Below are positions 5,112 to 40,611 of a stretch of 41,948 bases of DNA, in pieces. Below the pieces are notes generated by a model. It had not been told where the DNA came from. It made no database searches and saw nothing but the letters and a program-made list of their open reading frames with translations. The stretch is from Alistipes sp. (lineage in GTDB: Bacteria > Bacteroidota > Bacteroidia > Bacteroidales > Rikenellaceae). The stretch lies in contig JAFQOR010000009.1 of NCBI GenBank assembly GCA_017403125.1, positions 1 to 41,948 of the forward strand, read 5' to 3'. Both the position numbers and the translations under genes were made by a program. The number at the start of each line of letters is the position of its first letter. Position 1 is the first letter of the stretch.

Positions 5112-5822
5112 ATGCAACTATTTTATGCCCCGGAATTTTCAATTCCGTGCTATACTTTACCCGAAGAGGAGTCGAAACACTGTGTCAGAGTGCTGAGAAT
5201 GGGTGTCGGCGACGAGCTTCACATAACCGACGGACGTGGCACGATGCACCGCTGCAAAATCATCGACGACAACGCCAAGCGATGCGTAGTGGAGGTTGTG
5301 GAGAGCATAGAGGAGTACGAAAAGCTACCCTACACGCTCTCGATGGCTGTGGCTCCAACCAAAAACATAGACCGATTCGAGTGGTTCTTGGAGAAGGCTA
5401 CCGAGATAGGCGTCAGCGAGATATATCCATTAGAGAGTGCCCACAGCGAGCGCCGACAGATAAAGCCCGAACGCGAGGAGAAGGTGATAACCGCAGCCGT
5501 CAAGCAGTCGCTCAAAGCCTACCACCCCACACTCCACCCGATGACCACGTTCAAGGCTTTGGTGCAGCAGCCTTTCGACGGAAAACGATATATTGCACAC
5601 TGCAATTCGTCGATTGGCGAGAGGCACTATCTCGGCTCGCTGATAAAAAAGGGCGAGAATGTGCAAATTTTAATAGGTCCGGAGGGTGATTTTTCGCCAG
5701 AAGAGATTACCTTTGCACTACAAAACGGATTTAAGGCAATATCGCTTGGCAACCAACGTCTGCGTACCGAGACGGCAGCGACGGTGGCAACGGTTATTGT
5801 ATCCACAATCAACATGCTATAA
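5112..5822 (+). CDS. rsmE: 16S rRNA (uracil-1498-N3)-methyltransferase RsmE
   Basis: The 236-residue protein matches RsmE in length and motifs. The C-terminal SPOUT domain contains the knot motifs GPEGDFSPEE and LGNQRLRTETAA, which form the S-adenosylmethionine site. The N-terminal part has the PUA-like RNA-binding fold with SKHCVRVLRM near residue 20. The enzyme methylates N3 of U1498 in 16S rRNA, near the decoding centre, in the cytoplasm. It is divergent from the M3 peptidases and lies 34 bases upstream of the complex I-like operon, so read-through into that operon is possible. Confidence 0.95.
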   Translation: MQLFYAPEFSIPCYTLPEEESKHCVRVLRMGVGDELHITDGRGTMHRCKIIDDNAKRCVVEVVESIEEYEKLPYTLSMAVAPTKNIDRFEWFLEKATEIGVSEIYPLESAHSERRQIKPEREEKVITAAVKQSLKAYHPTLHPMTTFKALVQQPFDGKRYIAHCNSSIGERHYLGSLIKKGENVQILIGPEGDFSPEEITFALQNGFKAISLGNQRLRTETAATVATVIVSTINML

Positions 5823-5856: not shown

Positions 5857-7845
5857 ATGTATCTCTATTCACTACTTGTGGTGGCACTTATCATAGCCGC
5901 CATATTCCTAACACCCGTAAAACGCAAGGTGTGGGTCGCTACCGCCTTCATCGGCATGGCTGCCATAGGCGCAATAGCACTCTCGGTAATGGCGTTTTGC
6001 AACGGGAAGGTTGAGCTTACCGAGTTTGCGACGTCGCTATTTGGCGTTGAACGCCTCTCGGTAGATATACTATCGTCGCTCTTCCTATGTATAATTGCCA
6101 TAGCTTCGATAGCCACAGTGCTCTATTCGAGAGGCTATGTTGCCAACTACCTCAAACGCTTCTCGCCGGCGCATATCTCTATGCACTACACGGCGTTGGT
6201 AGCGCTGGTCATCTCGATGATGTTCGTTGTGATGTCGAGCGGAGGCTTCTCGTTCCTGTTTGCATGGGAGCTTATGACCATCTCATCGTTTATCCTCATC
6301 CTGTTTGAGGCCGACCGTCAGGAGGTACGTCGCGCAGCTCTGAACTATCTGGTGATGATGCACATAGGCTTCATGTTCCTCGTTGCCGGATTCGTGCTTC
6401 TGGCAAACCATACAGGCTCGGCAAACTTTGAGGCACTGACCATCTATTTCAAGGAGTGCAACCCGTTACCTATATTCATAATCTTCTTCATAGGTTTCGG
6501 CATGAAGTCGGGCGTCTTCCCCATGCACATCTGGCTTCCGGAGGCCCACCCCGCAGCACCTTCACACGTCTCGGCAATCATGTCTGGCGTGATGATTAAG
6601 ACGGGTATCTACGGTATTCTGCGCCTTATGCAGGCCATCGACCACGATATCAACCTGCTCTACAACATAGGACTTATCATCCTGCTTTCAGGCATCGTAA
6701 CGGGTCTGTGGGGCATTATCCTCGCCTCGATGCAGAACGACATAAAGCGTCTGCTGGCGTATTCGAGTATCGAGAACATAGGAGTGATACTCATAGGCTT
6801 GGGCATTGCAGCCGTAGGTCACGCAGCAGGTAGCAACCTTATAGGTATGTGCGGTATGTGTGGAGCGCTACTCCACACACTCAACCACTCGCTCTTCAAG
6901 ACAATGCTCTTCTTTGGCGCTGGCAACATCTACTCGAAGCTCCACACGACATCGATGAACCAGATGGGTGGCTTGGCAAAGTACATGCCTCTTACGGCCA
7001 TCATGATGATGATTGCAACGGTGGCTATTTGTGCACTACCGCCACTGAATGGTTTTGTTTCGGAGTTGCTCATATACATAGGAATGTTCAACGGTGTAAG
7101 TGACGGTCACGAGCTTCTCTACTCGGTTGGAGGCATCATCGCCCTCTCGCTTATCGGAGGCATGGTGGTATTGGCATTTACCAAACTCTATGGCATTGTG
7201 TTCCTCGGCTCACCACGCACGACACACGTTGCCGAGAGCGAGGAGGTGGATGGCTTGCGCATTGCTGCTATGGCGATACCCGCCACGTTCATGCTCCTCA
7301 TAGGTCTCTTCCCGCAGTTTATCATCGAGCCTATATCGACCGTTGCCGGTGGCGTGACTGGTGGCGATAAGAGCATTACCATCGAGCACTTCACACCTAC
7401 GTTGCAGGCTGTGAGCATCGCCGGATGGACACTTATCATTCTGATTGCACTACTCTACACGCTGAAATACCGCGCACAACGACGTCGTAAGATTGAGGTG
7501 GGGCCCACGTGGGGTTGTGGCTTCACGGCTACGAATACGCGCATGCAATATACCGGAGAGTCGTATGCCGAGGGTGTGGAGAGCATCCTTGCAAAGGCCA
7601 TGACCAAGGAGCATGTCGATGGTCGCACAATCGACAAGAGCGAGATATTCCCCACGAAGCACAGCTACAACATTCGCCATAAGGATAAGGTAGATTCGTT
7701 GCTTGGCAGATGGTGGGTGCGTCTTATGCACCGTATCAACGAGTATGTGATGCGTCTGCGTACCGGACGTGTGAACAACTATATCACCTTTGCCTTGGTA
7801 TTCCTCGTTGCAGTATTACTGCTTACGCTGTTTAACCTAATGTAG
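5857..7845 (+). CDS. Antiporter-like membrane subunit, HyfB/NuoL family, of an Ehr-type complex
   Basis: A polytopic membrane protein of 662 residues belonging to the proton-conducting antiporter family (NuoL/NuoM/NuoN, HyfB). Repeated hydrophobic helices span most of the chain. Family landmarks include FAWELMTISSF, the Lys/His-containing MHIWLPEAHPAAPSHVSA motif and NDIKRLLAYSSIENIG. A soluble loop near residues 540-600 with GPTWGCGF and YTGESYAEG is typical of HyfB/HycC-type subunits. It would translocate H+ or Na+. The frame could start at TTG 5851, but the ATG at 5857 is preferred. It is the first gene of a six-gene operon with gaps of 2-25 bases. Confidence 0.9.
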   Translation: MYLYSLLVVALIIAAIFLTPVKRKVWVATAFIGMAAIGAIALSVMAFCNGKVELTEFATSLFGVERLSVDILSSLFLCIIAIASIATVLYSRGYVANYLKRFSPAHISMHYTALVALVISMMFVVMSSGGFSFLFAWELMTISSFILILFEADRQEVRRAALNYLVMMHIGFMFLVAGFVLLANHTGSANFEALTIYFKECNPLPIFIIFFIGFGMKSGVFPMHIWLPEAHPAAPSHVSAIMSGVMIKTGIYGILRLMQAIDHDINLLYNIGLIILLSGIVTGLWGIILASMQNDIKRLLAYSSIENIGVILIGLGIAAVGHAAGSNLIGMCGMCGALLHTLNHSLFKTMLFFGAGNIYSKLHTTSMNQMGGLAKYMPLTAIMMMIATVAICALPPLNGFVSELLIYIGMFNGVSDGHELLYSVGGIIALSLIGGMVVLAFTKLYGIVFLGSPRTTHVAESEEVDGLRIAAMAIPATFMLLIGLFPQFIIEPISTVAGGVTGGDKSITIEHFTPTLQAVSIAGWTLIILIALLYTLKYRAQRRRKIEVGPTWGCGFTATNTRMQYTGESYAEGVESILAKAMTKEHVDGRTIDKSEIFPTKHSYNIRHKDKVDSLLGRWWVRLMHRINEYVMRLRTGRVNNYITFALVFLVAVLLLTLFNLM

Positions 7846-7870
7846 TCTAACACCCAAATTTAATCCGAAA

Positions 7871-8788
7871 ATGTTAGTACAACTCTGCAATACACTTCTA
7901 ATGGTTGTTGTAGCACTCTCGATTACGGGTGTTATCAACCGCACACGCGCCCTGCTTGCCGGGCGCAAAGGCATACGCTTTGCACAACACATCTACAACG
8001 TTCGATTGCTCATGCGCAAGGGTGCTGTCTATTCATCTACTACAAGCATTCTCTTCCGCATCGCCCCCTGCATATATCTCGGAGCAACGCTCATGGCATT
8101 TCTCTTCATTCCCGTTGCAGACCTATGGCCTCTGTTCTCGTTCCATGGTGACATTGTGCTGGTGGCATACCTGCTCGCCTTGTCGCGCATGGCTCTGATA
8201 CTCGCCGCTTTGGATACGGGTAGCTCGTTCGAGGGCATGGGAGCCTCGCGTGAGGCACTCTATGGAGCTCTTGTCGAGCCGGCACTTATGATGGGATTGG
8301 CAACGTTGGCACTCTTCTGTGGCTACTCGTCGTTTGCCGACATCTTTGCTGATGCACAGCAGTTGGATATGAACCTCACGGTTATCATGCTATTGGTAGC
8401 CTACGTCTTTGTCGTCATACTCTTCATCGAGGCGGGACGCGTACCCGTAGATGACCCGAAGACACACCTCGAACTTACGATGATACACGAGGTTATGTGC
8501 CTCGACTACTCGGGCATCGACATGGCTATGATTCAGATTGCCGGCTGGTTGAAGAACGCTATCTTTGCAATGATTGCAGCAAATGCCATCGCAGTAGCCT
8601 TCTGCTTCCATTGGTGGTTTGCTACGCCTCTGGCCATCATCGCCACGGGTGTTGCCGTGGGCGTTGTGGAGTCGCTCCGCGCTCGCAACAAACTTTCGCG
8701 CAACGTAACCTACATCCTCACCATTGTTGCCCTCTCGGCACTTGTACTTCTCATAGGCTTCCTTCTAACCCAAAATATCGAAATTTAG
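7871..8788 (+). CDS. NuoH/HyfC-like membrane subunit
   Basis: A 305-residue protein with about eight hydrophobic helices, in the NuoH/HyfC/HycD family. It contains the conserved quinone-chamber type loop with FIEAGRVPVDDPKTHLELTMIHE (two halves: FIEAGRVPVDDP and HLELTMIHE), rich in conserved acidic residues. This subunit anchors the peripheral arm to the membrane arm and couples the redox or catalytic module to ion pumping. It follows hyfB by 25 bases and precedes the HyfE-like gene by 3 bases, so translation is probably coupled. Confidence 0.9.
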   Translation: MLVQLCNTLLMVVVALSITGVINRTRALLAGRKGIRFAQHIYNVRLLMRKGAVYSSTTSILFRIAPCIYLGATLMAFLFIPVADLWPLFSFHGDIVLVAYLLALSRMALILAALDTGSSFEGMGASREALYGALVEPALMMGLATLALFCGYSSFADIFADAQQLDMNLTVIMLLVAYVFVVILFIEAGRVPVDDPKTHLELTMIHEVMCLDYSGIDMAMIQIAGWLKNAIFAMIAANAIAVAFCFHWWFATPLAIIATGVAVGVVESLRARNKLSRNVTYILTIVALSALVLLIGFLLTQNIEI

Positions 8789-8791
8789 GTC

Positions 8792-9418
8792 ATGACACTA
8801 TCGCTGATAATACTATATGTACTGACGCTCATCTATCTGTCGATGGCAGAGCGCTTCCGCAACCACACAACAATACTTGCCATTCAGGGTCTGCTGCTCT
8901 TTGGCATTGCCATGTTGCGCCTACACTCGTTCCACCCCGTCGAGATGAGTTTCATTATCGTCGAGACGCTCGTATTCAAGGCTATTGTCATACCGGCAAT
9001 ACTTATGCACGTCATACGCAAGACAAAGATTAACCGCATACACTCCTCATCGTCGCAATTCGGCTCGCTCGCCATGTCGCTTGCAGCACTCATAGCAAGC
9101 TGTACTATAACGGTATATATGGCCGACCAAAACACCGACATGATATTCTTTGGTGTGGCACTCTACGCTCTGCTATCGGGACTTATCCTTATTGTGATGC
9201 GTAAGCGTATCTTTGCCCACCTGATAGGCTTCCTTGTTATCGAGAACGGAGTCTTTCTCTTTTCGATGGCAATAGGTGTCGAGCTCCCGATGCTTATCAA
9301 CCTCGCAATCATGCTCGACATCCTTATCTCAATACTCATCCTCGGCATGTTCCTGCGCCGTATGGATAACGACATTCATACCGACGAGACGGATGCTCTA
9401 ACCTCGATAAAAGACTAA
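8792..9418 (+). CDS. HyfE-like membrane subunit (NuoK-related)
   Basis: A 208-residue hydrophobic protein with about six or seven predicted helices and a charged C-terminus containing DNDIHTDETD. Length and position, between the HyfC-like and HyfF-like genes, match HyfE of hydrogenase-4-type complexes. The C-terminal half resembles NuoK (VIENGVFLFSMAIGVELP). It likely forms part of the lateral ion pathway. Spacing is 3 bases upstream and 4 bases downstream. Confidence 0.85.
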   Translation: MTLSLIILYVLTLIYLSMAERFRNHTTILAIQGLLLFGIAMLRLHSFHPVEMSFIIVETLVFKAIVIPAILMHVIRKTKINRIHSSSSQFGSLAMSLAALIASCTITVYMADQNTDMIFFGVALYALLSGLILIVMRKRIFAHLIGFLVIENGVFLFSMAIGVELPMLINLAIMLDILISILILGMFLRRMDNDIHTDETDALTSIKD

Positions 9419-9422
9419 CGCC

Positions 9423-10835
9423 ATGCTTACGTATATAATAATATCGGTACTTCTTGCCGTAGCACCTCTCATTGTTCGTTCGGAGCGTAGCACGAACATC
9501 ATCGCCGCGACATTCTTCATGGTGCAGGTTGCGGCCATAGCGGCAATATTCCACTTCGACCTTATCGACAGCACGCTGCTATCGATATTCACGGCCGACA
9601 CCACCGCCGTGGTATTCCATATTCTCATGACCTGCGTGCTGGGTTTTGCGCTTCTGCACTCGTCATCGTATCTGAAAGCCGAGGGCATCAGCCGACGCTC
9701 CTACAAGGCCTACTACACGATACTTATGCTGCTCGCCATAGCCGTGACGCTGGTATATTACTCAAACAACCTCGCTATGACGTGGGTGTTCCTCGAAGCA
9801 ACGACCATCTGCTCGGCAGGTATCATCTACCACCGGGAGTTCCGTCAATCGTTGGAGGCTACGTGGAAGTATATCTTCGTTTGCTCGACAGGTATCGCCA
9901 TGGCATACTTGGGCATATTGCTTCTCTCGACCGTAGCTACCGAGGGGTCGCTGGCGTATAGCGATTTGAGCAACGTCATCGCCGAGGGCAATCCCCTCTA
10001 CTTGAAGGTTGCATTTCTCTTTATCGTGGTGGGTTATAGTTGTAAGATGGAGATATTCCCTCTCTATACCGTGGGTGTCGATGCCAACTACGCCGCTCCG
10101 GCTCCCGCCTCGGCATTCATATCTACGGCGTTGGTAAACGCAGGCTTTGTGTCGATACTTCGCATCTACATGCTCTACTCCTCGACAGGCGAAGTCTTTG
10201 AGTGGGCGCGTCATGTTCTTATCCTCATCGGCGTACTCTCGTTGGCCGTGGGTGCCATGTTCCTACGCCGTACCAACAACTACAAGCGCTTCTTGTCATA
10301 CTCAACGGTCGAGAACATGGGTATAGTTGCCATAGGTATGGGCATAGGAGGCTTGGCATTGTGGGCTGCCGTATTCCACGTAATATGTCACACCTTTGTC
10401 AAGAGCTCGATGTTCTTCCAAGTGGGTATCGTGCGCCACATCTACGACAGTTACAGCATCAACCGCATAGGTAACTACATGAACATTAACCACATAGGCG
10501 CAATAGGCATCATCATAGGCACGCTCGTATTACTCGCCTTCCCGCCCTCGCCACTCTTCATCACCGAGATTATGATATTCTCCGAGATTATCGCAGTCGA
10601 GAGCTGGTGGCTGTTGGTGCTTATGCTTCTGTTGATGTGTATGGTACTCTACGCTATATGGTCGCGTACACTACGTTTAAGCTACCACTCGAATCAGGAT
10701 GAGTTACACCTATCAGCCGTAAATCGTCGTCTTTCGTACTCGGCTGCCGTGCTTCTGCTCGTAGCCATTGCACTTGGCTTGTGGCAACCCGAATTCCTGA
10801 CCGACGCTATTGACAACATCGTAAATCTTGGCTAA
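9423..10835 (+). CDS. HyfF/NuoN-like antiporter subunit
   Basis: A second antiporter-like subunit of 470 residues with about 13-14 hydrophobic segments. It shows the family core: MTWVFLEATTICSAGIIYHRE, KMEIFPLYTVGVDANYAAPAP (read as KMEIFPLYTVGVD and NYAAPAPASAF) and YKRFLSYSTVENMG. The position between HyfE- and HyfG-like genes matches HyfF. Two antiporter-type subunits in one complex suggest two ion-pumping channels. It ends 2 bases before the next gene. Confidence 0.9.
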   Translation: MLTYIIISVLLAVAPLIVRSERSTNIIAATFFMVQVAAIAAIFHFDLIDSTLLSIFTADTTAVVFHILMTCVLGFALLHSSSYLKAEGISRRSYKAYYTILMLLAIAVTLVYYSNNLAMTWVFLEATTICSAGIIYHREFRQSLEATWKYIFVCSTGIAMAYLGILLLSTVATEGSLAYSDLSNVIAEGNPLYLKVAFLFIVVGYSCKMEIFPLYTVGVDANYAAPAPASAFISTALVNAGFVSILRIYMLYSSTGEVFEWARHVLILIGVLSLAVGAMFLRRTNNYKRFLSYSTVENMGIVAIGMGIGGLALWAAVFHVICHTFVKSSMFFQVGIVRHIYDSYSINRIGNYMNINHIGAIGIIIGTLVLLAFPPSPLFITEIMIFSEIIAVESWWLLVLMLLLMCMVLYAIWSRTLRLSYHSNQDELHLSAVNRRLSYSAAVLLLVAIALGLWQPEFLTDAIDNIVNLG

Positions 10836-10837
10836 CT

Positions 10838-12355
10838 ATGGAACTATATATAAGAAGCAACAACAACTCGTCGGCAATAGAGCTTTCGAACATCCCCGTT
10901 GTAGATTACGTTGCGCTCTACAACGACCTTAAAGAGCGTATGACGGATAGCCGATACCACGTAGCACACTACTTCGCTACGGAGGTTGAGAGCGGATTGC
11001 GATTCTTCATACTTATCCTCGACGACCAAACGTCGGAGGTACTTATCTCGTCATTTGCTCCCGACTACTACTCCGAAGAGGGCTTGGCATCGCTCACTGC
11101 GCTGCATCCACAGTTCCACCCCTTCGAGCGTGAGATGCACGAACTCTATGGCATCAACTTCAACCACCACCCATGGCTCAAACCTCTGCGTTTCTCGCAC
11201 GACAGACGCAACCGCGAGTCGTCGATGGATAACTACCCCTTCTACCAAATCGAGGGTGACGAGCTACATGAGGTGAACGTGGGTCCCATACATGCCGGCA
11301 TCATCGAGCCGGGCGCCTTCCGCTTTATCTGTAACGGCGAACAGGTGTTGCATCTGGAAATAGCCCTCGGCTACCAACACCGTGGCGTCGAGAGTGAGAT
11401 GCTACGCAACCAGAGTCGCCTGCGCCAGACACTTCTCTCGGAGTCCATTGCAGGAGATAGCGCCATATCACACTCTACGGCATATGTCGAACTTATCGAG
11501 AAACTCGGCGAAAAGGGTATTGACCAGGATTTGAATCGCGAGCGCGCCGTAGCAATTGAGTTGGAGCGCATAGCGATGCACATCGCCGATACGGGAGCCT
11601 TGGCTACCGACATTGGCTTCCAGCTCTATCAGGTAGCGTGTGAGGCTTTGCGTACGATGACTATCAACACAACACAGGCGTGGTGTGGCAACCGCTTCGG
11701 CAAGAGCCTAATTCGTCCCTTCGGCACAAATCATCCGCTTACGACCGAGAAGATAGCGATGATACGCAACAATGTTAAGGAGATACGTCGTCGCTACAAC
11801 GAGGTGCGCTGCGACATATTGGAGGCACCTACACTCCTCTCGCGTTTCGAACAGTGTGGCTTGGTGCCAACAGCCGAGATGAAGCGCATTGGCGGTGTGG
11901 GCATGGCAGCACGTTCGAGCAACGTGCGCCGCGATATACGCGCAACACACCCATGGGGATTCTATGGCGAGGAGCTTGTACACGAGCCCGTAATGCATGA
12001 CGATGGCGATGTTATGTCACGCCTTATGACACGCATGGACGAGGTGTTGCAGAGTGCCACCTACGTTGAACAGATGCTCGCCAACTACACCCCCACAGGC
12101 AAGATTCCGACCCCGGATTACGATGTTAAGTTAAAGACTAATGCCCTATCATTCTCAATTGTAGAGGGCTGGCGTGGCGAGATATGCCATGTGGCTCTAA
12201 CAAACGATAGTGGCGACATCAAGAAGTACAAGATTAAGGACCCCAGCCTACACAACTGGCTTGGCTTGGCAATCGCTGTTCGCTCGGAGGGCATCTCGGA
12301 CTTCCCCATCAACAACAAGAGTTTTAACCTGTCGTACTGCGGTCACGACTTATAA
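10838..12355 (+). CDS. HyfG-like large subunit (NuoC-NuoD fusion) lacking the Ni-Fe cysteines
   Basis: A 505-residue fusion of an N-terminal 30-kDa (NuoC-like) domain, with HPFEREMHELYGI near residue 90, and a C-terminal 49-kDa/hydrogenase large-subunit domain. Group 4 hydrogenases bind Ni-Fe with two CxxC motifs. The first, normally RICGIC, reads SIAGDSA at residues 203-209, so both cysteines are replaced by A205 and S208. The C-terminal DPCxxC motif is absent; the chain ends in NKSFNLSYCGHDL. The fold is kept but a Ni-Fe site cannot form. This matches energy-converting hydrogenase-related (Ehr) proteins. It could instead interact with quinone, as NuoD does, or only transmit conformational change. 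Confidence 0.9.
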   Translation: MELYIRSNNNSSAIELSNIPVVDYVALYNDLKERMTDSRYHVAHYFATEVESGLRFFILILDDQTSEVLISSFAPDYYSEEGLASLTALHPQFHPFEREMHELYGINFNHHPWLKPLRFSHDRRNRESSMDNYPFYQIEGDELHEVNVGPIHAGIIEPGAFRFICNGEQVLHLEIALGYQHRGVESEMLRNQSRLRQTLLSESIAGDSAISHSTAYVELIEKLGEKGIDQDLNRERAVAIELERIAMHIADTGALATDIGFQLYQVACEALRTMTINTTQAWCGNRFGKSLIRPFGTNHPLTTEKIAMIRNNVKEIRRRYNEVRCDILEAPTLLSRFEQCGLVPTAEMKRIGGVGMAARSSNVRRDIRATHPWGFYGEELVHEPVMHDDGDVMSRLMTRMDEVLQSATYVEQMLANYTPTGKIPTPDYDVKLKTNALSFSIVEGWRGEICHVALTNDSGDIKKYKIKDPSLHNWLGLAIAVRSEGISDFPINNKSFNLSYCGHDL

Positions 12356-12367
12356 GAGGAGAAGAGT

Positions 12368-13126
12368 ATGATTATTGGAAAAGCAAAGATTCTGCGTAGC
12401 CATGGCTGGCAGTATATCCCCGATTTGGATGGCGTGACCCTGACCGAGGAGTTCCGCGGCTTCCCGCTACTTACCGACAGCGAAGATAAGAGCGCCATTA
12501 AGCGTGCCGCAGCAATATGTCCCACGCACGCCATCAACGTCTCACCCTTCACACTCGACATGGGTAGGTGTCTGTTTTGTGGCGAGTGTGCATGTTGTGC
12601 CCCGAAGAACATAAAGTTCACTAACGAGCATCGCCTTGCAGCCACGCGCCGCGAAGACCTTATAGTCATGGCTGGACAGACCAAGCCTTGTTTCAATCGC
12701 GAGGTCATACGTCCCGAAATATCTAAATTTTTTGGTAAGGCATTGCAGCTACGCGAGGTGTCGGCAGGTGGCGATGCCTCGATAGAGATGGAACTTGGTG
12801 CTACGGGCAACGTAAACTTCGACTTCGGACGCTATGGCGTAGGCTTCACCGCCTCGCCGCGCCATGCCGATGGTTTGGTGCTTACGGGTCCTATAAGCGA
12901 AAATATGGCAGAGGCACTCGATATATGCTACAACTCAATTGCCGAGCCCAAGATTCTGGTTGTGTGCGGTTCGGAGGCAATCTCGGGAGGTTTGTTTGCC
13001 GAGAGCCCGGCTGTTGAGCGCTCGTTCCTAAATCGCTACCATGTCGATTTATGGCTTCCGGGCACACCGACACACCCGTTGTGCTTTATCGACGGCATAA
13101 CGAAGCTACGCAAGAAGCAAAAGTAG
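12368..13126 (+). CDS. HyfH-HyfI-like fusion: ferredoxin domain plus small subunit without N2 cysteines
   Basis: A 252-residue protein. The N-terminal third is a half-degenerate ferredoxin: C51 (ICPTHAI) with C68, C71 and C74 (CLFCGEC) can bind one [4Fe-4S] cluster, while the ligands of the other are lost. The C-terminal part aligns with HyfI/NuoB (SPRHADGLVLTGP near 163-175), but all four proximal-cluster cysteines are replaced: D136, I139, E203 and T233 (PGTP where PGCP is expected). Electron transfer to the active-site position is therefore unlikely by the usual path. The start is supported by an AGGAG stretch a few bases upstream. It is the last gene of the operon, followed by a strong terminator. 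Confidence 0.88.
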   Translation: MIIGKAKILRSHGWQYIPDLDGVTLTEEFRGFPLLTDSEDKSAIKRAAAICPTHAINVSPFTLDMGRCLFCGECACCAPKNIKFTNEHRLAATRREDLIVMAGQTKPCFNREVIRPEISKFFGKALQLREVSAGGDASIEMELGATGNVNFDFGRYGVGFTASPRHADGLVLTGPISENMAEALDICYNSIAEPKILVVCGSEAISGGLFAESPAVERSFLNRYHVDLWLPGTPTHPLCFIDGITKLRKKQK

Positions 13127-27926: not shown

Positions 27927-28319
27927 CTACAACATCTCGTCGTACTCCAACCTCTCGCGCACCTTTGCCCAATGAACAACCGGGCGGCGCACACCGTCAA
28001 TAAAACGAATGGGGCAACCCAACGCCGAATCGTCGATATAGAGGTCGGCATAGACCTTAACCGACTCGGTCCACTCGTGCTGCTCGGGGTTGTGATTGAC
28101 ACCCCACAAATCGATCTTACGCTCCTTGAACCAGCGCACTGCCGCCGCAAGCTTATCACCCGAACGCATGGTGTAGAGTATGAGCCTATGTCCACGCCTA
28201 TTCAGAGCACGCAGCACATCGACAGCGCCCTCGACATCCATGCCCACCGACGGATAATCGTGCTCGACACACGTGCCATCGAAATCGATAGCTATGACAA
28301 TACCCTCACGTTTGCCCAT
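27927..28319 (-). CDS. HAD-superfamily hydrolase (BT0820-like)
   Basis: A 130-residue HAD-type protein: DFDGT (nucleophile D12, D14), the strand ending ILYTMRS, and the acidic IDDSALG. It is very short, a minimal core without cap domain, like the Bacteroides BT0820 group. The start codon overlaps the stop of the tyrosine autokinase gene by one base (TAATG), so translation is coupled. It may be a small phosphatase serving the polysaccharide unit. It is not a classical PTP-type partner of the kinase. Confidence 0.85.
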   Translation of the reverse strand: MGKREGIVIAIDFDGTCVEHDYPSVGMDVEGAVDVLRALNRRGHRLILYTMRSGDKLAAAVRWFKERKIDLWGVNHNPEQHEWTESVKVYADLYIDDSALGCPIRFIDGVRRPVVHWAKVRERLEYDEML

Positions 28320-30715
28320 TATCTACGCTTTTTGAATAATCTTCTAAACTTATGCCAATAACGACGCCACGCATTCATGTCGTCATCGTCGGTATAGTAG
28401 CCGTAGCCATAGCCATAACCATAGGTCCCCTTGCTGTGGGTTACGCCATTGAAGACAACTGCCATACTATCGAACTTCTTATCCTCGTACATACGCTCAA
28501 TATCGGGCAACTGACTACGGTCGAGGTAGTTTTGACGCACCACATAAATGGTTATATCGACCAAACGACCCACGATAAAGGCATCGGCAACAGCCATAGC
28601 GGGAACATTATCCACTATAATAATATCGTAGCTCTCGCGCAGTTCCTTGACAATATCCTCCATGCGCGACGACATAAGCATCTCGGCAGGATTAGGTGGC
28701 TGGGGACCTGCATACATTATATCTATATTAGGGCTAAGCTCTCCCTTGGTTATAGCCTCCGCCGTAGAGCCTATGCCACCCGCAAGCAATGTCGTTATGC
28801 CACGTCGGTCGTTACGATGTCCCATAAGCTTGGTGAGTGTGCGACGACGAAGATCAAGATCCATGATAAGCACTCGCTTGCCCGATATTGCATAGGTCAG
28901 AGCGAGGTTGAGCGACACAAAGGTCTTACCACTATGCGGCACCGACGAGGTGAGCATGACGACCTGAATGTTGCGATCCAACGTCATATAATTTATATTG
29001 GTACGCAGCATGCGGAACGCCTCCGACACAGCATCGCGACCATCATCCCTAACCACAATACCCCTCTCCGCTCTGCCTGTGTAGCGCGGTATCTCGCCAA
29101 GCATCGGCGCCGAAACATACTCCTCGATATCCTTGCGACTGCGTACCTTCGTATTGAATTTCTCACGCATATAGATAATAAGAAGCGGTACGACGAAACC
29201 CAAACATAGCGCCACGACGTAGATAAGCATCTTGCGCGGGCTCACCGGATTATTGCTACCATGCGCCCAATCTATTACGCGGGCGTTACTCTCGGCCGTG
29301 GCTCCCGTTAGAGCATTCTCTTCGAGCTTGGTAAGAAGGTAGATATATAGCTCCTCCTTCACCTTCTGCTGACGCATTATCGAGAGCAGCTCCTTCTCCT
29401 TCGTAGGAGAGTTATTCATCTGGCTATCTGCCATACGTTGCTCCCTCTCGATATTCTCGATATGGAGTTTTAGGCCCTCGATATGCGACTCCAACGACGC
29501 TACAATAGAGCCGCGCACGGTGATGATGCTTGCGCCGAGGTCGAGAACGAAGGGGTTGTTGTCCGACGACTCCGAAACAAGACGATTGTACAACAGCAGA
29601 TTTTCGTTATAGACCTCGATCTGCGACGCTAACGCCGTAGATGCGCCACTCATGGTTACCACCGACGCTGGTATCAGACCTCCAACACCGTCGGTTTCAC
29701 CGATATAGTCGAGGATATACTGCGCCATTTCGAGGTTTACGGCAAGCTCCATAGCCTCCTTCTTCAAACGCATAATCTCGTCGGCACCCATCGCAGCCTC
29801 CTCCGCGGGGTTGTAGATTTGGTTGTCGCGCTTGAACTCCGCGACATTATCATCGGCAATACCCAACTCGTTGCCAAGTGTCGCAAGACGCTCGATGATA
29901 AACTCCTCGGTAAGATTCGATATCGTGCGCTTATCCTCGATAGCATCGGCATTGTAGGCATCGATAATACCATTTATCACCTGCTCGGCACGCAGTATAA
30001 CCTCGTCGTTCATCGTAAGTTTGATGACCGACGCCTGCTTATCCGTAATCTCGCATTTTAGCTTATTGCGATACTGCTCCACAGTCGTATTGAGCGGCAT
30101 ACGGCTAACCAGAATTTCTTGGTCGTTGTAGCGATTGATATAGGGCGTAGGCAAAATCGCTACCCTACCCATAGGCGTTGTTACGGTGTCGCCCGGCACA
30201 ACCGATGCCTGAAATTCCCCACGCGAAAAGTTGTAGAGATTGACACTCTCGCCACCCGAGACAACATAATTGAACGCACCCGACAGGTTGTCGCCCGCAT
30301 CGAGAAACTTAACCTCGATAGGAGCACGACCATAGAGGTCGGTGGTGCGTATGCGACCCTTGGTCGTATAGCGCGTAGCCAAGTCGTAACGACGTACGAC
30401 CTGCTCCATCAGTTTGTAGGACTTGAAGATGTAAATCTCGTTATCTACCGAGCGACGACCCATGACGCCCGTAATGTCGCTAAATGCCGAAAACTCGGCA
30501 CTGCCACCCTTACGCGAGTCCTTGACCAACACCGATGCCGTACGCTGATATACGGGAGGGGTGCGACGAATATAGAACTCGGCACAGAGAACAAACAGAA
30601 GAAACGAGAGGACAAACCAATACCAATTGGATAGTATAAGGTTTAGAATATCGTAGAACGTAAACTTGCGACTTGTAGAGATCTTCTTATCGCTTTTCTC
30701 ACTACTTTTCGACAT
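28319..30715 (-). CDS. Polysaccharide co-polymerase / BY-type tyrosine autokinase (Wzc-like)
   Basis: A 798-residue inner-membrane protein. Its layout is a first membrane segment near residues 30-47, a Wzz domain with PVYQRTASVLVKD, a long coiled-coil periplasmic part, a second membrane segment near 490-510, and a cytoplasmic BY-kinase domain. The kinase domain has Walker A VPHSGKTF (K597), Walker A-prime VLIMDLDLRRRTL, and a C-terminal Tyr cluster GTYGYGYGYGYYT (residues about 763-775) followed by an Asp run. The phosphorylation state of such clusters sets polysaccharide chain length and export. The exporter gene lies directly upstream, 26 bases away. Confidence 0.93.
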   Translation of the reverse strand: MSKSSEKSDKKISTSRKFTFYDILNLILSNWYWFVLSFLLFVLCAEFYIRRTPPVYQRTASVLVKDSRKGGSAEFSAFSDITGVMGRRSVDNEIYIFKSYKLMEQVVRRYDLATRYTTKGRIRTTDLYGRAPIEVKFLDAGDNLSGAFNYVVSGGESVNLYNFSRGEFQASVVPGDTVTTPMGRVAILPTPYINRYNDQEILVSRMPLNTTVEQYRNKLKCEITDKQASVIKLTMNDEVILRAEQVINGIIDAYNADAIEDKRTISNLTEEFIIERLATLGNELGIADDNVAEFKRDNQIYNPAEEAAMGADEIMRLKKEAMELAVNLEMAQYILDYIGETDGVGGLIPASVVTMSGASTALASQIEVYNENLLLYNRLVSESSDNNPFVLDLGASIITVRGSIVASLESHIEGLKLHIENIEREQRMADSQMNNSPTKEKELLSIMRQQKVKEELYIYLLTKLEENALTGATAESNARVIDWAHGSNNPVSPRKMLIYVVALCLGFVVPLLIIYMREKFNTKVRSRKDIEEYVSAPMLGEIPRYTGRAERGIVVRDDGRDAVSEAFRMLRTNINYMTLDRNIQVVMLTSSVPHSGKTFVSLNLALTYAISGKRVLIMDLDLRRRTLTKLMGHRNDRRGITTLLAGGIGSTAEAITKGELSPNIDIMYAGPQPPNPAEMLMSSRMEDIVKELRESYDIIIVDNVPAMAVADAFIVGRLVDITIYVVRQNYLDRSQLPDIERMYEDKKFDSMAVVFNGVTHSKGTYGYGYGYGYYTDDDDMNAWRRYWHKFRRLFKKRR

Positions 30716-30741
30716 TTTCGCAGAGTTAATTTATTGAAGTA

Positions 30742-31545
30742 CTACTTTGATATGCTGAATATTGTTACGACCAACGTTGCCAACGATACCGCCGTGCTGG
30801 CAATCGAGATCCAGAACGAGCGATTCTGATTTATCTCTGCCGTGGCTGCACGATACTTATTTGGACTCACTATAAGCACGTCGTTCTGTTCGAGGTAGAA
30901 GCAGGGAGAGAGGAATATATCCTTCGAACGCAGGTCGAGTTTTGTAACCACATTCTTGCCCCCCTTTTCGCGTACGACAGCTATATTTTCACGGTCGGCA
31001 TAAATCGTGAGGTCGCCAGCCAACGCCAAAGCATCGAATATCGAAACCTTATCACGCTCGATATTGTAGCGTCCGGGTTTGTTCACCTCACCCACAATAG
31101 ATATGGCAAGGTTAGCAAAACTAACATTTACCTTGGCATCAGCGATGTAGCCACCCTCGATAATGCGACGCTCGATGTCGGCAGCAAGCTCCTGGCGCGT
31201 CATGCCGCCACAACGTATCTTACCCAGCACCGGGAAATCGATACAACCATCTCTATCGACAGTAAAGACCTGCACGCTATCCTCCGTCGCCGTGGTTATG
31301 GTGTTTGTGCCAATAAGTGCACTGTAATTCGACGACGAGTTGAAGGGTTTCGCCAACTCGGGATTCATGCTGTTTACCACAATCTTTATCTGATCATAGG
31401 GCTTTAAACGTATGATACAGTTTTCGGGCAGCTCGATTACAGCTCCGTCGGCGACATCCTGCAAGTAAAGAACACGCTGCCGCGCATTACACGCACAGAG
31501 GAGTAACGCGACACAAAGTGCTAAACGCTTGAAATATTTTGCCAT
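30742..31545 (-). CDS. Polysaccharide export lipoprotein (Wza-like)
   Basis: A 267-residue lipoprotein with signal MAKYFKRL and lipobox LCAC (acylated C19). It has a Poly_export domain (LKPYDQIKIVVNSMNPEL, then GCIDFPVLGKIRCGGMT), a SLBB-type region (NKPGRYNIERDKVSIFDAL), and a C-terminal hydrophobic segment typical of Bacteroidetes homologues. It would form the outer-membrane channel for the polymer assembled with the tyrosine autokinase. An open frame continues upstream to 31620, but the ATG at 31545 gives a proper lipoprotein signal and is chosen. Confidence 0.93.
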   Translation of the reverse strand: MAKYFKRLALCVALLLCACNARQRVLYLQDVADGAVIELPENCIIRLKPYDQIKIVVNSMNPELAKPFNSSSNYSALIGTNTITTATEDSVQVFTVDRDGCIDFPVLGKIRCGGMTRQELAADIERRIIEGGYIADAKVNVSFANLAISIVGEVNKPGRYNIERDKVSIFDALALAGDLTIYADRENIAVVREKGGKNVVTKLDLRSKDIFLSPCFYLEQNDVLIVSPNKYRAATAEINQNRSFWISIASTAVSLATLVVTIFSISK

Positions 31546-31849
31546 ATTCTTGTTGTTATATTTTTGTTTATCTACAAGGTTATCTGTTGCACAAATCAAC
31601 GCGCGTTGTATAATGCGCATAATTCGTGCAAATATACAATTTTTTTTCGAGGATATAGTTTTTCCCCTAAATAATTAAGGTATGGACAGCCTTCTGATGT
31701 CGCATACGGAGCGATGAGAAGAGAGCAGTTGGAGAGGTTAGGGATAACGGATTTTCTCCTTAAACTCCTTAAACTCTCTAAACTCCTTAACCCTGCCCTA
31801 CCCACGAGCATAACGCAGCAATTCGCCTTTATAATCGTTCGGGAAGGGG
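31546..31849. other. Gap between exporter and LytR-type regulator genes
   Basis: This 304-base gap contains a leftward -7 candidate TATATTTGC at 31636-31628, with a leader of about 75 bases to the exporter start, and the 9-bp tandem repeat at 31751-31795. An 8-bp near-complement, ggttaggg against ccctgccctacc, flanks the repeat. No credible coding frame was found. Confidence 0.5.
31751..31795. repeat. 9-bp tandem repeat, second site (about five units)
   Basis: Units in order: attttctcc, ttaaactcc, ttaaactct, ctaaactcc, ttaaccctg. The middle three match closely, and the unit is the same as at 27496-27531. Confidence 0.6.
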
Positions 31850-35914: not shown

Positions 35915-38900
35915 ATGAGAAAATTCTTAACTATGTGTTTGGGACTCGTACTGCTCGCGCTGGCGATGCCCACCCAAGTGTTTGCACAAAGCAAATACGA
36001 GGTTAAAGGTGTGGTAGTTGATACTACCGGAACGCCGGTTATTGGAGCCTCTGTTGTTGAACAGGGCACGTCGAACGGCGTCACCACCGATGTCAATGGT
36101 CAGTATGTACTGAGAGTTGACAGTGCAGAGTCTATCGTTGTAATCAGCTACGTTGGTTACAAGACGCAGGCGCTTGCCGCCTCATCAAGCCTCTTGCAGA
36201 ACGTTGTTTTGGAGGAGGATGCAGCACTTATCGATGACGTTGTAGTCATTGGTTATGGTGTTGTAAAGAAGAACGACCTTACCGGTTCGGTATCTACCGT
36301 AAAGGCAGATCAGACCAACAAGGGTCTTGCTACTTCACCCACCGACCTTTTGCGTGGTAAGTCAGCAGGTGTGGTAATCACATCGGGCGACGGTGCTCCC
36401 GGTTCGGCATCTACCGTACGTATCCGTGGTGGTTCATCACTTAACGCATCGAACGACCCCTTGGTAGTTATCGACGGTCTTCCCGTATCGAACTCTGATA
36501 TCGCGGGTACTGCCAACGCTTTGGCATCTATCAACCCCTCGGATATCGAGTCATTCACCGTATTGAAGGATGCTTCGGCAACCGCTATCTACGGTTCACG
36601 TGCATCTAACGGTGTCATCATCATCACCACCAAGAAGGGTTCGAAGTACGACGGTGCTGTTCCTCACGTAGATGTTGATTTCACAGCATCGTTGAGCCAG
36701 AACGCAAAGTATGTTGATGTTATGACAGGCGACGAGATGCGCCAGACTTTGGAGTGGTACTACGGTACTGATCACGACGCATATCGCTCGGCAACGAAGT
36801 ATGGTAACACCAATACCGATTGGCAGCGCGAGATCTACCAGCTCGCACAGTCTTACGAGGGTAATATCGCTTTGAGCGGTAACATCAAGATGGGTGAGAA
36901 GAATAACCTTCCTTATCGTGTGTCTTACGGTTATTTGAATCAGGATGGTACGTTGAAGACTTCTAACATGTCACGTCACACCATCTCTGTAAACCTTAAC
37001 CCTCAGCTCTTGGACAACCACCTCACCATCAACGTAAATGGTAAGGGTATGATTATGGACAACCGTTTCGCTGACGCGGGTGCCGTATCACAGGCTGTTC
37101 AGTTCGACCCCACCAAGCCTATCTACCTCGCTAACGAGGAGGGCGGCATCAATGGCTACTACACATGGCGCGGTACCGATGGTAAGCACAACACAATGGC
37201 TAACCAGAACCCCGTTGCTATGTTGAACGATAAGCATGACGTATCTAACGCAAAGCGTTTGGTAGGTAACATCCAGATCGACTATAAGATTCATGGTTTG
37301 GAGGATCTCCGCTTGAACCTTAACCTCGGTATGGACTACACCAAGTCGCATGGTACTGTTGATGTAGCTCCCGGTGCAGAGCAGTCACGCCACGCCACAG
37401 ATCAGGCTGGTTCGGGTTACCACACCAACTACTCACAGAAGCGTCGCGACCAGACTTTGGAGTTCTACGCTGCTTATGCAAAGACATGGGGCAAGCACTC
37501 ATTCGACATCATGGCAGGTTACTCATGGCAGAACTTCTGGCAGGAGTCATTCAACGAGTCTTATCGCATTGCTCTTATCGACAACGGTAAGGAGGGTGAC
37601 GAGTGGAATGGCGGTTGGGATCCCGATAGCGGCACTCCCTACATTCCTATCTCGAAGGATGCAGACAACTACTACATCAAAGCTCCCAAGACATCACGCG
37701 GCGAGTACTTCCTCGTATCGTTCTTTGGTCGTGTAAACTACTCATACGACAACCGCTACTCTATCACCGCTACTTTGCGTAACGATGGTACATCACGCTT
37801 CCAGAACCATAAGTGGGGTCTGTTCCCCTCTGTTGCTTTGGCATGGAACATCAAGAACGAGCAGTTCTTGGAGGATAACGATGCTATCTCGGCTTTGAAG
37901 CTCCGTTTGAGCTACGGTCAGACAGGTCAGCAGGAGGTAGGTGGCTACTATCCTACTTTGGCTACCTATGTTGATAATACACTCGGTTCGCTCTATCCCT
38001 TCGGCTCATACAGCGATGGTTTCTACCCCATCACAGCCGCAGGCTACAACCCCGATTTGAAGTGGGAGACAACTACTACCTACAACGCAGGTATGGACTT
38101 TGGCTTCCTCGATGGTCGCATCACTGCAAGTGCCGACTTCTACTATCGCGAGACCAAGGATTTGCTCAACCGTCTTCCCGTTCCCGCAGGTTCGAACCTC
38201 AAAAACCAGCTTGATGCTAACATCGGTGACTTGAAGAACATCGGTGTTGAGTTCGAGATCAACGCTATCGCTATCGATACCGAGGATTGGTACTGGAACA
38301 TTGGTGCTAACGTAGCATGGAACCGCAACGAGATTACTCGTCTTTCGAACGAGGATGAGAACCCCGACTACAAGGGCGTTACTACGGGCGTTATCTCTGG
38401 TGGTGTAGGTAACACTATCCAGGTACACCAGACCGGTCATCCTACCAGCTCGTTCTACGTATATCAGCAGATTTACGACGAGAACGGCATGCCTATCGAG
38501 GGCTTGTACGTAGATCGTAACAACGATGGCGTAGTCAACGAGAACGATAAGTATATCTACAAGAAGCCTGCTCCCGATGTAACCATTGGTTTCAATACAC
38601 AGCTCTCATGGCGTGCTCTTACACTCGCTATATCGGCTCACTCTAACATCGGCAACTACGTTTACGACAACATTTCGTCAAACGGCGAGCTTCTTACCGA
38701 CCTCTGGACTAACAACTTTACCAACAACCGTGTTGTCACAGCTCCTGTTACCAACTTCCGTAGCTCGGCACAGTACATGTCTGACTACTATGTACGTAAC
38801 GCTTCATTCTTGAAGATCGACAACATCACATTGAGCTACCGCTTCGATTTGGGTAAGGCTTGCGACCGTCCTCTCTCATTGAGCGTATTTGGTACTGTAC

Positions 38901-39019
38901 AGAATGTAGCTACTATCACCGGTTACAAGGGTATCGATCCCGAGATTTTCAACGGTATCGACAACAACATGTATCCACGTCCTCGTACCTACATCCTTGG
39001 CTTGAAGTTCAATTTCTAA
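35915..39019 (+). CDS. SusC/RagA-family TonB-dependent outer membrane transporter
   Basis: A 1034-residue protein. It has a signal peptide of about 25 residues ending VFAQ, a carboxypeptidase-like regulatory domain (VKGVVVDTTGTPVIGASV), the SusC hallmark DDVVVIGYG, a plug domain (LLRGKSAGVVI, GSRASNGVIIITTKKG), and a long beta-barrel ending in LGLKFNF with the C-terminal phenylalanine. It imports oligosaccharide across the outer membrane with the SusD lipoprotein as lid. No STN domain is present, so it does not signal to an anti-sigma factor. Codons ending in C and strongly preferred triplets are more uniform than in neighbouring genes, consistent with high expression. Confidence 0.96.
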   Translation: MRKFLTMCLGLVLLALAMPTQVFAQSKYEVKGVVVDTTGTPVIGASVVEQGTSNGVTTDVNGQYVLRVDSAESIVVISYVGYKTQALAASSSLLQNVVLEEDAALIDDVVVIGYGVVKKNDLTGSVSTVKADQTNKGLATSPTDLLRGKSAGVVITSGDGAPGSASTVRIRGGSSLNASNDPLVVIDGLPVSNSDIAGTANALASINPSDIESFTVLKDASATAIYGSRASNGVIIITTKKGSKYDGAVPHVDVDFTASLSQNAKYVDVMTGDEMRQTLEWYYGTDHDAYRSATKYGNTNTDWQREIYQLAQSYEGNIALSGNIKMGEKNNLPYRVSYGYLNQDGTLKTSNMSRHTISVNLNPQLLDNHLTINVNGKGMIMDNRFADAGAVSQAVQFDPTKPIYLANEEGGINGYYTWRGTDGKHNTMANQNPVAMLNDKHDVSNAKRLVGNIQIDYKIHGLEDLRLNLNLGMDYTKSHGTVDVAPGAEQSRHATDQAGSGYHTNYSQKRRDQTLEFYAAYAKTWGKHSFDIMAGYSWQNFWQESFNESYRIALIDNGKEGDEWNGGWDPDSGTPYIPISKDADNYYIKAPKTSRGEYFLVSFFGRVNYSYDNRYSITATLRNDGTSRFQNHKWGLFPSVALAWNIKNEQFLEDNDAISALKLRLSYGQTGQQEVGGYYPTLATYVDNTLGSLYPFGSYSDGFYPITAAGYNPDLKWETTTTYNAGMDFGFLDGRITASADFYYRETKDLLNRLPVPAGSNLKNQLDANIGDLKNIGVEFEINAIAIDTEDWYWNIGANVAWNRNEITRLSNEDENPDYKGVTTGVISGGVGNTIQVHQTGHPTSSFYVYQQIYDENGMPIEGLYVDRNNDGVVNENDKYIYKKPAPDVTIGFNTQLSWRALTLAISAHSNIGNYVYDNISSNGELLTDLWTNNFTNNRVVTAPVTNFRSSAQYMSDYYVRNASFLKIDNITLSYRFDLGKACDRPLSLSVFGTVQNVATITGYKGIDPEIFNGIDNNMYPRPRTYILGLKFNF

Positions 39020-39039
39020 TATAAAGTCGCTTAAACGTT

Positions 39040-40611
39040 ATGAAAAAGATAAAAATATTTATGATGTCTTTTGCCGCAGTATGTGCACTCGGCATGAGCT
39101 CATGTGTTAAGGATTTGGAGGTTACTCCTATCGATCCTTCTACACGCTTCCCCTCGGATGCGCTTAACAGCGAGCAGGGCTTCGAGCAGTTGCTTGCAAA
39201 GTGCTATGCCGGTTTGGCAGTTTCATCTTCGTATGGTGCCAATGGCGATCCCGATATCGAGGGCGTTGATGGTGGTTTTGGTCAGTACCTTCGTGCTTAC
39301 TTCAACCTCAACTGTTTGACTACCGATGAGGCTATTTGTGCATGGAACGATACCGGTCTGCCCGATTTGCAGAACATGAACTGGCAGTCTTCTAACCAGT
39401 TTATCATCGCTATGTACTACCGCGTATTCTATCAGATCAGCCTTTGCAACGAGTTCATTCGTCAGGTTAACAGCACCAACGTTGTCTTCACCGGCAACAA
39501 CCGCGCTGCCATGATTGCCGAGGCTCGTGCATTGCGTGCTCTCTCGTTCTACCACGCTATCGACATGTTTGGCGACGTGGCATTCCCCTCAGAGAATGAT
39601 CCCGTGAGCCTCACAGCTCCCCGCAAGATCAGCCGCGCCGAGCTCTTCGACTGGGTTGTTGCCGAGTGCGAGGATTTGGTAAATGGTAGCGACCTTGCAG
39701 AGGAGGGTCAGAACATCTATGGCCGTTGCGACAAGGGTTTTGCCCGCATGATTCTTGCCAAGCTCTACCTCAACGCCGAGGTTTACAAGGGTGAGGCTAT
39801 GTATGACAAGTGTGCCGAGCAGTGCGAGATTCTTATGTCGAAGTATCAGCTCCACCCCAACTTCGCTGACTTGTTCGCTGCCGACAACCACCTCTTCACC
39901 GCGAACACTACTCATGGCTCGACCAACGAGATTATCTTCGCTGTTCCCCACGATGGTATCAGAACTACATCTTATGGTGGTACCAACTTCCTTATCTTCG
40001 CCGGTACGGGTGGTGATATGAACCCTACCGAGATGGGTATCTCATCTGGTTGGAGCGGTTTGTCAGTGACCATGCAGGTTGCCGATCGTTACACCGAGAA
40101 TGATGCTCGCCACATGTTCTTCACCGCTTATGGCAAGGAGAACCCCGAGGCACAGAACTTCACAGCCGGTGGTTACAAATCTATCAAGTTCCGCAACGTA
40201 AATCACGATGGTGGTGCTGCACAGACTACCGGTTTCGTTGATACCGACTTCCCCTTGTTCCGCGTAGCTGATGCCTACCTTATGTTTGCCGAGTGCGCAA
40301 AGCGTGGTGGTGCAAGCGAGGCAGAGGGTCTTAAAGCTCTCAACGCTGTACGCGCACGCGCTAACATTATCGCGCATACAAGCTACACATTGCAGGATGT
40401 TCTCGACGAGCGCTCACGCGAGTTCTTGTGGGAGGGCTGCCGTCGTCAGGACCTTATCCGCTATGGTCAGTTCACAACAGCTGACTACGTGTGGGAGTAC
40501 AAGGGTTCGGTTAAGGAGGGTGCTGCGGTTGAGTCATTCCGCAACCTCTTCCCCATCCCCGCTGCGGAGATCAATGCTAACCCCAACCTCAGCCAGAACG
40601 AGGGTTACTAA
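39040..40611 (+). CDS. SusD/RagB-family glycan-binding lipoprotein
   Basis: A 523-residue outer-membrane lipoprotein with lipobox LGMSSC (acylated C22). It has the SusD fold: SEQGFEQLLAKCYAGL, the TPR-like helical core with AEARALRALSFYHAIDMFGDVAF (in pieces), and the C-terminal FLWEGCRRQDLIRYG and NLFPIPAAEINANPNLSQNEGY (in pieces), a standard end. It forms the lid over the SusC barrel and binds the glycan. It starts 20 bases after susC. Confidence 0.96.
   Translation: MKKIKIFMMSFAAVCALGMSSCVKDLEVTPIDPSTRFPSDALNSEQGFEQLLAKCYAGLAVSSSYGANGDPDIEGVDGGFGQYLRAYFNLNCLTTDEAICAWNDTGLPDLQNMNWQSSNQFIIAMYYRVFYQISLCNEFIRQVNSTNVVFTGNNRAAMIAEARALRALSFYHAIDMFGDVAFPSENDPVSLTAPRKISRAELFDWVVAECEDLVNGSDLAEEGQNIYGRCDKGFARMILAKLYLNAEVYKGEAMYDKCAEQCEILMSKYQLHPNFADLFAADNHLFTANTTHGSTNEIIFAVPHDGIRTTSYGGTNFLIFAGTGGDMNPTEMGISSGWSGLSVTMQVADRYTENDARHMFFTAYGKENPEAQNFTAGGYKSIKFRNVNHDGGAAQTTGFVDTDFPLFRVADAYLMFAECAKRGGASEAEGLKALNAVRARANIIAHTSYTLQDVLDERSREFLWEGCRRQDLIRYGQFTTADYVWEYKGSVKEGAAVESFRNLFPIPAAEINANPNLSQNEGY

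Follow-up and report, generated by a model that had tools for sequence, protein, structure and literature searches.

An Ehr-like operon of Alistipes sp. encodes a complex I relative whose proximal-cluster seat appears to be rebuilt around two acidic residues

Group-4-like membrane complexes without Ni-Fe ligands are known as energy-converting hydrogenase-related (Ehr) complexes. Examples are described from Geobacter sulfurreducens (GSU0739-45), Margulisbacteria, comammox Nitrospira and bacteria of the candidate phyla radiation (CPR), and the sections of the papers dealing with them give no established function (PMC6349859, PMC10284858, PMC3569383, PMC7894505, PMC7304191). In formate hydrogenlyase (FHL) the proximal iron-sulfur cluster is described as occupying the same place as N2 of complex I (PMC9474812). 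For the membrane-bound sulfane sulfur reductase (MBS) of Pyrococcus furiosus the published account has the distal and the medial cluster hand electrons on to the proximal one, which lies at the chamber next to three loops coupling to the membrane arm (PMC7684303). Here we describe an operon at positions 5857-13126 of a 41,948-nucleotide stretch of DNA from Alistipes sp. (contig JAFQOR010000009.1; hereafter the window). Its predicted product is a widespread variant of the Ehr complexes, a name that rests on motifs and published descriptions. As far as sequence can tell, it belongs to a clade which goes beyond the known Ehr complexes without Ni-Fe ligands in that the proximal cluster has been replaced as well.

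The operon consists of six intact open frames in the order B-C-E-F-G-I, all on the + strand, with intergenic gaps from B to I of 25, 3, 4, 2 and 12 bases. An earlier reading made from the letters alone (the sequence-only reading) had listed a full subunit set with two antiporter-type members, and the six frames and two Proton_antipo_M matches agree with it. The last gene encodes a HycF/NuoI-like ferredoxin domain fused to a HycG/NuoB-like domain. Small subunits without the N2 cysteines, like that of the window, are called Asp-type below, and relatives keeping all four are called Cys-type. The features of gene I are:

12368..13126, + strand: I, small subunit, 252 aa (Fer4 and Oxidored_q6 in one chain)
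12518..12589, + strand: sole remaining [4Fe-4S] site in I, C51/C68/C71/C74 (present in 124/124 Asp-type and 15/15 Cys-type rows)
12773..12784, + strand: positions of the first two lost proximal-cluster ligands in I, D136 and I139 (profile alignment onto CxxC)
12974..12976, + strand: position of the third lost proximal-cluster ligand in I, E203 (profile alignment onto the third cysteine)
13064..13075, + strand: position of the fourth lost proximal-cluster ligand in I, T233, plus the invariant H236 (profile alignment onto the fourth cysteine)

Ligand positions were assigned by profile alignment to MbhJ of 6cfw and HycG of 7z0s. The Asp-type alignment, collected through similarity to Asp-type sequences, has 124 rows for 123 genes, one gene being entered twice (as L041 and L058). 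Position 136 was aspartate in every row and position 203 was always acidic (D in 94, E in 30). The other two former ligand positions were loose: nine residues occurred at 139 (C79 V17 I9 T6 A6 N4 S1 P1 G1) and five at 233 (N96 A25 T1 H1 S1). None of the 124 rows had a cysteine at 136, 203 or 233, and all had H236, which was also present in 12 of the 15 Cys-type rows. The pattern persisted at low similarity. Among 30 representatives below 70% identity (lowest pair 40%) position 136 was D and position 203 acidic in all 30, while 139 took eight residues. Named genomes yielded 525 relatives, and each of the best 80 had the four ferredoxin cysteines together with D136, D/E203, N233 and H236; since the first query row was itself Asp-type and only these best matches were taken, 80/80 is no census.

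A pocket in which two acids are fixed and two positions are free to vary is not what relaxed loss should produce. The fixation of acids at 136 and 203 suggests that the proximal site was rebuilt and not merely stripped. From the alignments, then, the N2 seat is predicted to be a dicarboxylate site and the electron wire to be cut after one cluster. The sequence-only reading had named D136, I139, E203 and T233 at the four N2 cysteine positions, and the loss of the N2 set is shared by all 124 Asp-type rows. Its further suggestion, that all four positions might be conserved as non-cysteine, held for the acids at 136 and 203. It failed at 139, where 79 of 124 rows have cysteine, and 233 is non-cysteine but variable.

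The single ferredoxin site recognised in that reading is indeed the only complete cluster set in I. We take it to be the medial (N6b-like) cluster, following the usual ligand pattern and numbering. A complete outer ferredoxin set occurred in none of the 124 Asp-type rows, 13 of which retain a cysteine at its last position. An alternative cysteine cluster in I was looked for among alignment columns that are 50% cysteine or more, and rejected: only C51, C68, C71 and C74 were invariant, C187 being present in 93/124 and C139 in 79/124 rows.

The hydrogen-handling site of the large subunit is gone too, to judge from its motifs:

10838..12355, + strand: G, large subunit, NuoC-NuoD/HycE-like fusion of 505 aa without Ni-Fe ligands (Complex1_30kDa and Complex1_49kDa in one chain)
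11450..11461, + strand: former N-terminal Ni-Fe motif in G, A205-G206-D207-S208 (CxxC cysteines replaced)
12332..12343, + strand: former C-terminal Ni-Fe motif in G, S499-Y500-C501-G502 (without CxxC)

Every residue that the sequence-only reading had named in G was correct, and its assignment to the Ehr-type complexes without Ni-Fe ligands is borne out by the motifs in the window and in the Asp-type rows. Residues of the two former motifs were hardly variable: G206 and D207 were found in 110/110 Asp-type rows, S499 in 112/112 and G502 in 111/112, and all four in 15/15 Cys-type rows. The cysteines of G were weighed as a candidate new metal site. In Asp-type rows C165 was present in 108/108, C450 in 108/112, C501 in 89/112 and C283 in 84/112; C165 and C283 also occur in 13/15 Cys-type rows each, C450 in none of the 15. 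Two arginines are typical of the Asp-type, R293 (112/112 versus 2/15 Cys-type rows) and R365 (110/112 versus 3/15). A separate gene supplying the catalytic subunit was likewise sought in the genome of the window (1.84 Mb, 88% complete): the only large-subunit match was the operon itself, and HypD (PF01924) had no match. Metal site and adjacent cluster both thus appear to be lost.

The sampled relatives that keep N2 all lie in other classes. When 395 genomes from across the phylum were sampled, 25 matched at 1e-20, of which 8 were short and NuoB-like. Of the 17 long matches, two were Asp-type, namely the window and G208, a genome from another class; the remaining 15 likewise come from other classes and have N2 cysteines at all four positions. 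Thus 15 of 16 long relatives from other classes have the full set, G208 being the exception. These 15 rows are a small set, in which G277 (L045) is flagged with an internal stop. Gene order in the Cys-type loci is that of the window, with B doubled in L052-L054, G and I some 2 kb apart in L057, and subunit C split over two frames in L055. The outer ferredoxin set is complete in 11 of the 15 and absent from L044-L046 and L056. In L044-L046 the N2 cysteines are intact and the outer set is incomplete, an intermediate state of the electron wire. We infer that the outer ferredoxin cluster was likely lost first and N2 afterwards. In a tree computed with the ligand columns removed, Asp- and Cys-types separated with an ultrafast bootstrap of 92, the position of the root not having been tested. 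It comprised 63 taxa, 50 Asp-type and 13 Cys-type; L056 and L057 were dropped for gaps, and 30 of the 50 Asp-type taxa were drawn at random among named ones in which neither gene falls much short of full length.

The variant is not rare. Among 200 genomes of the family, 125 matched the small subunit at 1e-3 and 94 did so better than 1e-60 (long matches), the remainder being short NuoB-like or ferredoxin-like sequences. All 40 small subunits inspected, alongside 37 large ones and with those of the window included, were Asp-type. The titles of the best 80 of 525 named relatives were mainly from Bacteroidota; some metagenome-assembled genomes (MAGs) were labelled Spirochaetes/Spirochaetia, Phycisphaerae or Brocadiaceae, labels that may be wrong. 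Chryseolinea serpens (L090) and Arcticibacter (L110) are carriers available in culture.

Both peripheral subunits are under purifying selection. Between close relatives the ratio of nonsynonymous to synonymous substitutions (dN/dS) was 0.07-0.11 for I (five pairs) and, in a gap-free comparison which may overestimate it, 0.10-0.20 for G (four pairs). The ratios are rough because synonymous differences are large (the proportion of differing synonymous sites, pS, is 0.57-0.67). A different kind of evidence comes from G013, a genome of the same family (single contig, 99% complete, of which 2,418,001 of 3,149,227 bases or 77% were covered). Each of the six genes was found in it once, at several chromosomal sites: B, then C-E, and I lie non-adjacent within about 27 kb, and G and F are elsewhere (loci L222, L246, L204 and L058). 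Read from stop to stop, the open frames are 610 (B), 301 (C), 213 (E), 471 (F), 472 (G) and 247 (I) residues long, B being shorter than that of the window (662). Since all six genes were retained after the operon broke up, the complex itself appears to be the unit under selection.

The operon also varies in layout elsewhere. In L061:4193-9031, from the genus of G013, F-G-I occur without B, C and E directly upstream, and the sequence has a long branch in the tree. Many of the loci L071-L138 have B twice (B-B-C-E-F-G-I); in L073 it appears three times, possibly as pieces and not copies. In L111, B-C-E-F and G-I form divergent halves on opposite strands, and L136:1-8500, titled Candidatus Brocadiaceae, carries G and I a second time, upstream of its operon.

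The membrane arm is encoded by the first four genes:

5857..7845, + strand: B, HyfB/NuoL-M-like antiporter subunit, 662 aa (Proton_antipo_M, 6.5e-57)
7871..8788, + strand: C, HyfC/HycD/NuoH-like subunit linking the arms, 305 aa (NADHdh, 2.4e-24)
8792..9418, + strand: E, HyfE-like membrane subunit, 208 aa (weak match to a hydrogenase-4 membrane subunit)
9423..10835, + strand: F, HyfF/NuoN-like antiporter subunit, 470 aa (Proton_antipo_M, 1.4e-36)

The closest NCBIfam model for B was hydrogenase 4 subunit B, at 518 bits under its cut-off of 667. E matched a hydrogenase 4 membrane subunit (1.5e-12; 48 bits, under the cut-off of 136) and, weakly, Oxidored_q2 (0.01). Annotation by closest family models would probably call these genes hydrogenase-4 or NADH dehydrogenase subunits. 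The ion-path features of the superfamily are present, namely a Lys/Glu/His path through the antiporter subunits and a set of acidic residues in NuoH-like C. Among Asp-type rows, E138 of B was found in 97/97 and K217, K248, K297, H340, H344, K348 and E403 each in 97 or 98 of 98. In C, E128, E136, E187, R190, D194, D195, H199, E201, H206 and E207 were all present in 76/76 rows, as were E125, K208, K288 and K327 of F in 86/86. These conserved residues suggest that the complex pumps ions. Some titratable residues distinguish the Asp-type from the Cys-type: H110 (95/97 versus 3/16) and H237 (97/98 versus 4/17) of B, E58 of E (79/79 versus 4/15) and H323 of F (86/86 versus 4/15).

What might drive such a pump? 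We tentatively favour, at rather less than even odds, a ferredoxin-driven and probably menaquinone-linked mechanism. Reduced ferredoxin would load the single [4Fe-4S] cluster, from which electrons would go to an acceptor, most likely menaquinone. Its head would enter the vacated proximal seat, where the acids at 136 and 203 and nearby histidines could donate protons. The quinone reaction would then shift the loops between the arms and so drive H+ or Na+ through the antiporter subunits. The MbhJ/HycG fold is kept in I, and the invariance of C51, C68, C71 and C74 despite the loss of the outer and proximal sets fits a continuing redox role. Tunnelling rates estimated for a 0.35 eV drop over assumed distances were 71-410 per second at 20 Å and 0.02-0.1 at 26 Å. 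As usable tunnelling is restricted to about 20 Å from the cluster, an acceptor would have to reach the vacated seat or its vicinity, and it is this need which favours a ferredoxin-fed pump with the acceptor in the seat. The conserved ion path, the strong purifying selection and the menaquinone markers of the carriers all speak for it, as does the lack of a recurrent downstream partner. No partner oxidoreductase recurred in 51 loci, surveyed chiefly in their downstream flanks; one neighbour family reached 4 loci and none more. In L059 the genes that separate G from I were considered as a partner and rejected, being read from their open reading frames (ORFs) as NDK, pseudouridine synthase and a PASTA protein.

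The quinone evidence is as follows. The genome of the window has MqnC and one UbiA-family gene, together with one [FeFe]-hydrogenase domain; MenD was not found in it at 88% completeness. Of 31 genomes with the variant, 29 had a menaquinone marker. Full-length MqnC was present in 16 (11 over and 5 under the curated cut-off), MenD over the cut-off in 13 others, and no genome had both. Both Spirochaetes MAGs examined had MqnC under the cut-off.

Several observations weigh against the ferredoxin-menaquinone pump. Two of the 31 carriers, G104 (96% complete) and G594, have neither marker. The marker count covers carriers only, and menaquinone is common in the phylum Bacteroidota. RnfC was found in 199/200 family genomes at 1e-3, and over the cut-off in 189/200 including the genome of the window, which also has NqrA; thus ferredoxin and quinone are already served by other enzymes. 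Finally, the old Ni-Fe pocket (H152, D207, H212, R446 and S499) is identical in the Cys-type relatives, with E157 in 14/15, so there is no sign that it was re-aimed at an acceptor further up.

Nearly as likely as the favoured pump, though still on the doubtful side, is a redox-gated or non-redox cation/proton antiporter. The carboxylate pair would supply the buried negative charge that the cluster once provided, and would work by proton uptake and release, the lone [4Fe-4S] cluster serving as a sensor or gate and not as part of a wire. The acidity of two former ligand positions in 124/124 rows suits such an antiporter, as do the absence of a downstream partner enzyme from the 51 loci and the unchanged catalytic pocket, which did not respond when the wire was cut. 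Further support comes from the basic residues R293 and R365 of G and the titratable ones of B, E and F, although the Cys-type sample is small and leaves it uncertain how typical they are. This antiporter reading alone, however, does not explain the invariance of all four ferredoxin cysteines. It is possible, at about one chance in three, that a widespread member of the complex I superfamily moves ions without a redox centre at the coupling site, the cluster having been swapped for a protonatable carboxylate pair. A step driven by electrons in complex I would then be driven by protons in the complex of the window, and the remaining cluster would act as a redox gate.

We consider it improbable that the rebuilt site holds an unconventional electron-carrying cofactor, either a mononuclear metal or a cluster ligated by Asp and Asn. 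D136, D/E203 and H236 are invariant, N233 is common (96/124) and C139 is kept in 79/124 rows, all of which could be read as a ligand set. However, nine different residues occur at 139 and five at 233, among the latter alanine in 25/124 rows. Moreover, H236 is present in 12/15 relatives that keep N2, so it did not arise with the N2 change, and only two positions of the proposed set are both new and fixed. A decaying relic or an assembly artefact, to which the missing ligands of both Ni-Fe motifs and of the outer and proximal sets might point, together with an internal stop flagged in one of 94 long family rows (G106), is very improbable given the intact frames, the low dN/dS of I and G, the identical pattern in the best 80 of 525 named relatives, the invariance down to 40% identity and the six genes kept though scattered in G013; here the sequence-only reading had come to the same view.

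Around the operon, the flanks were read from ORFs, without a family scan, as RsmE and dihydrofolate reductase. The RsmE-like gene lies just 5' of the operon at 5112-5822. An RsmE-like match was present in 16 of the 20 family loci L022-L041, some truncated by the locus end, and in L032:83-1571 the small-subunit gene lies directly 3' of RsmE with the other five subunit genes non-adjacent. Farther away, and read in the same way, are Wzc- and Wza-like genes (28319-31620) and a SusC/SusD-like pair (35915-40611) after a sugar transporter of the major facilitator superfamily (MFS).

Complex I carries N2, and a central open question about it is how electron transfer at N2 becomes ion movement far along the membrane arm. 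A natural clade without the N2 ligands, but with the ion path kept and the seat under strong selection, would be a ready-made test of whether redox chemistry there is needed for coupling. Like the quinone module of complex I (NuoB-NuoCD-NuoI), the complex has a C-D fusion, NuoB- and NuoI-like domains and the same fold. The NADH-oxidising module (NuoEFG) is not in the six-gene operon, and there is a single ferredoxin set; complex I, by contrast, is described with N2 (PMC7684303).

The hydrogenases are closer in sequence. FHL-1 (7z0s) and the membrane-bound hydrogenase MBH (6cfw) were the best PDB matches of G and I, and FHL was the top VIA row for the models of both subunits, the rows for I within 1 Z being tied. 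Unlike them, the complex of the window has neither Ni-Fe nor proximal ligands, has one ferredoxin set in place of two, and comes from a genome (88% complete) in which HypD had no match. Mrp-type cation/proton antiporters have related antiporter subunits and need no redox chemistry. The comparison with them was made through family matches; the complex of the window keeps a NuoB-CD-like peripheral arm with a conserved [4Fe-4S] site.

MBS (6u8y), which matched less well than MBH or FHL (2.1e-12 for I and 1.8e-17 for G), is described as having likewise lost its Ni-Fe ligands, as having an antiporter-rich membrane arm and as being altered in its proximal-cluster ligation. It differs in that it reportedly keeps three clusters, the proximal one, held by three cysteines, being the catalyst (PMC7684303), whereas the seat in the window has no cysteine set. 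An Ehr complex without N2 was not found in open-access titles and abstract openings, a coverage that excludes the main Ehr survey (Marreiros et al. 2013). With the Ehr complexes the window shares the group-4-like subunit set with antiporter-type subunits and, as in most of them, the lack of Ni-Fe ligands. The published definition, in the parts of the papers where it is given, consists of the missing Ni-Fe ligands and makes no mention of a missing proximal cluster; the type found in the window has lost the N2 ligands as well.

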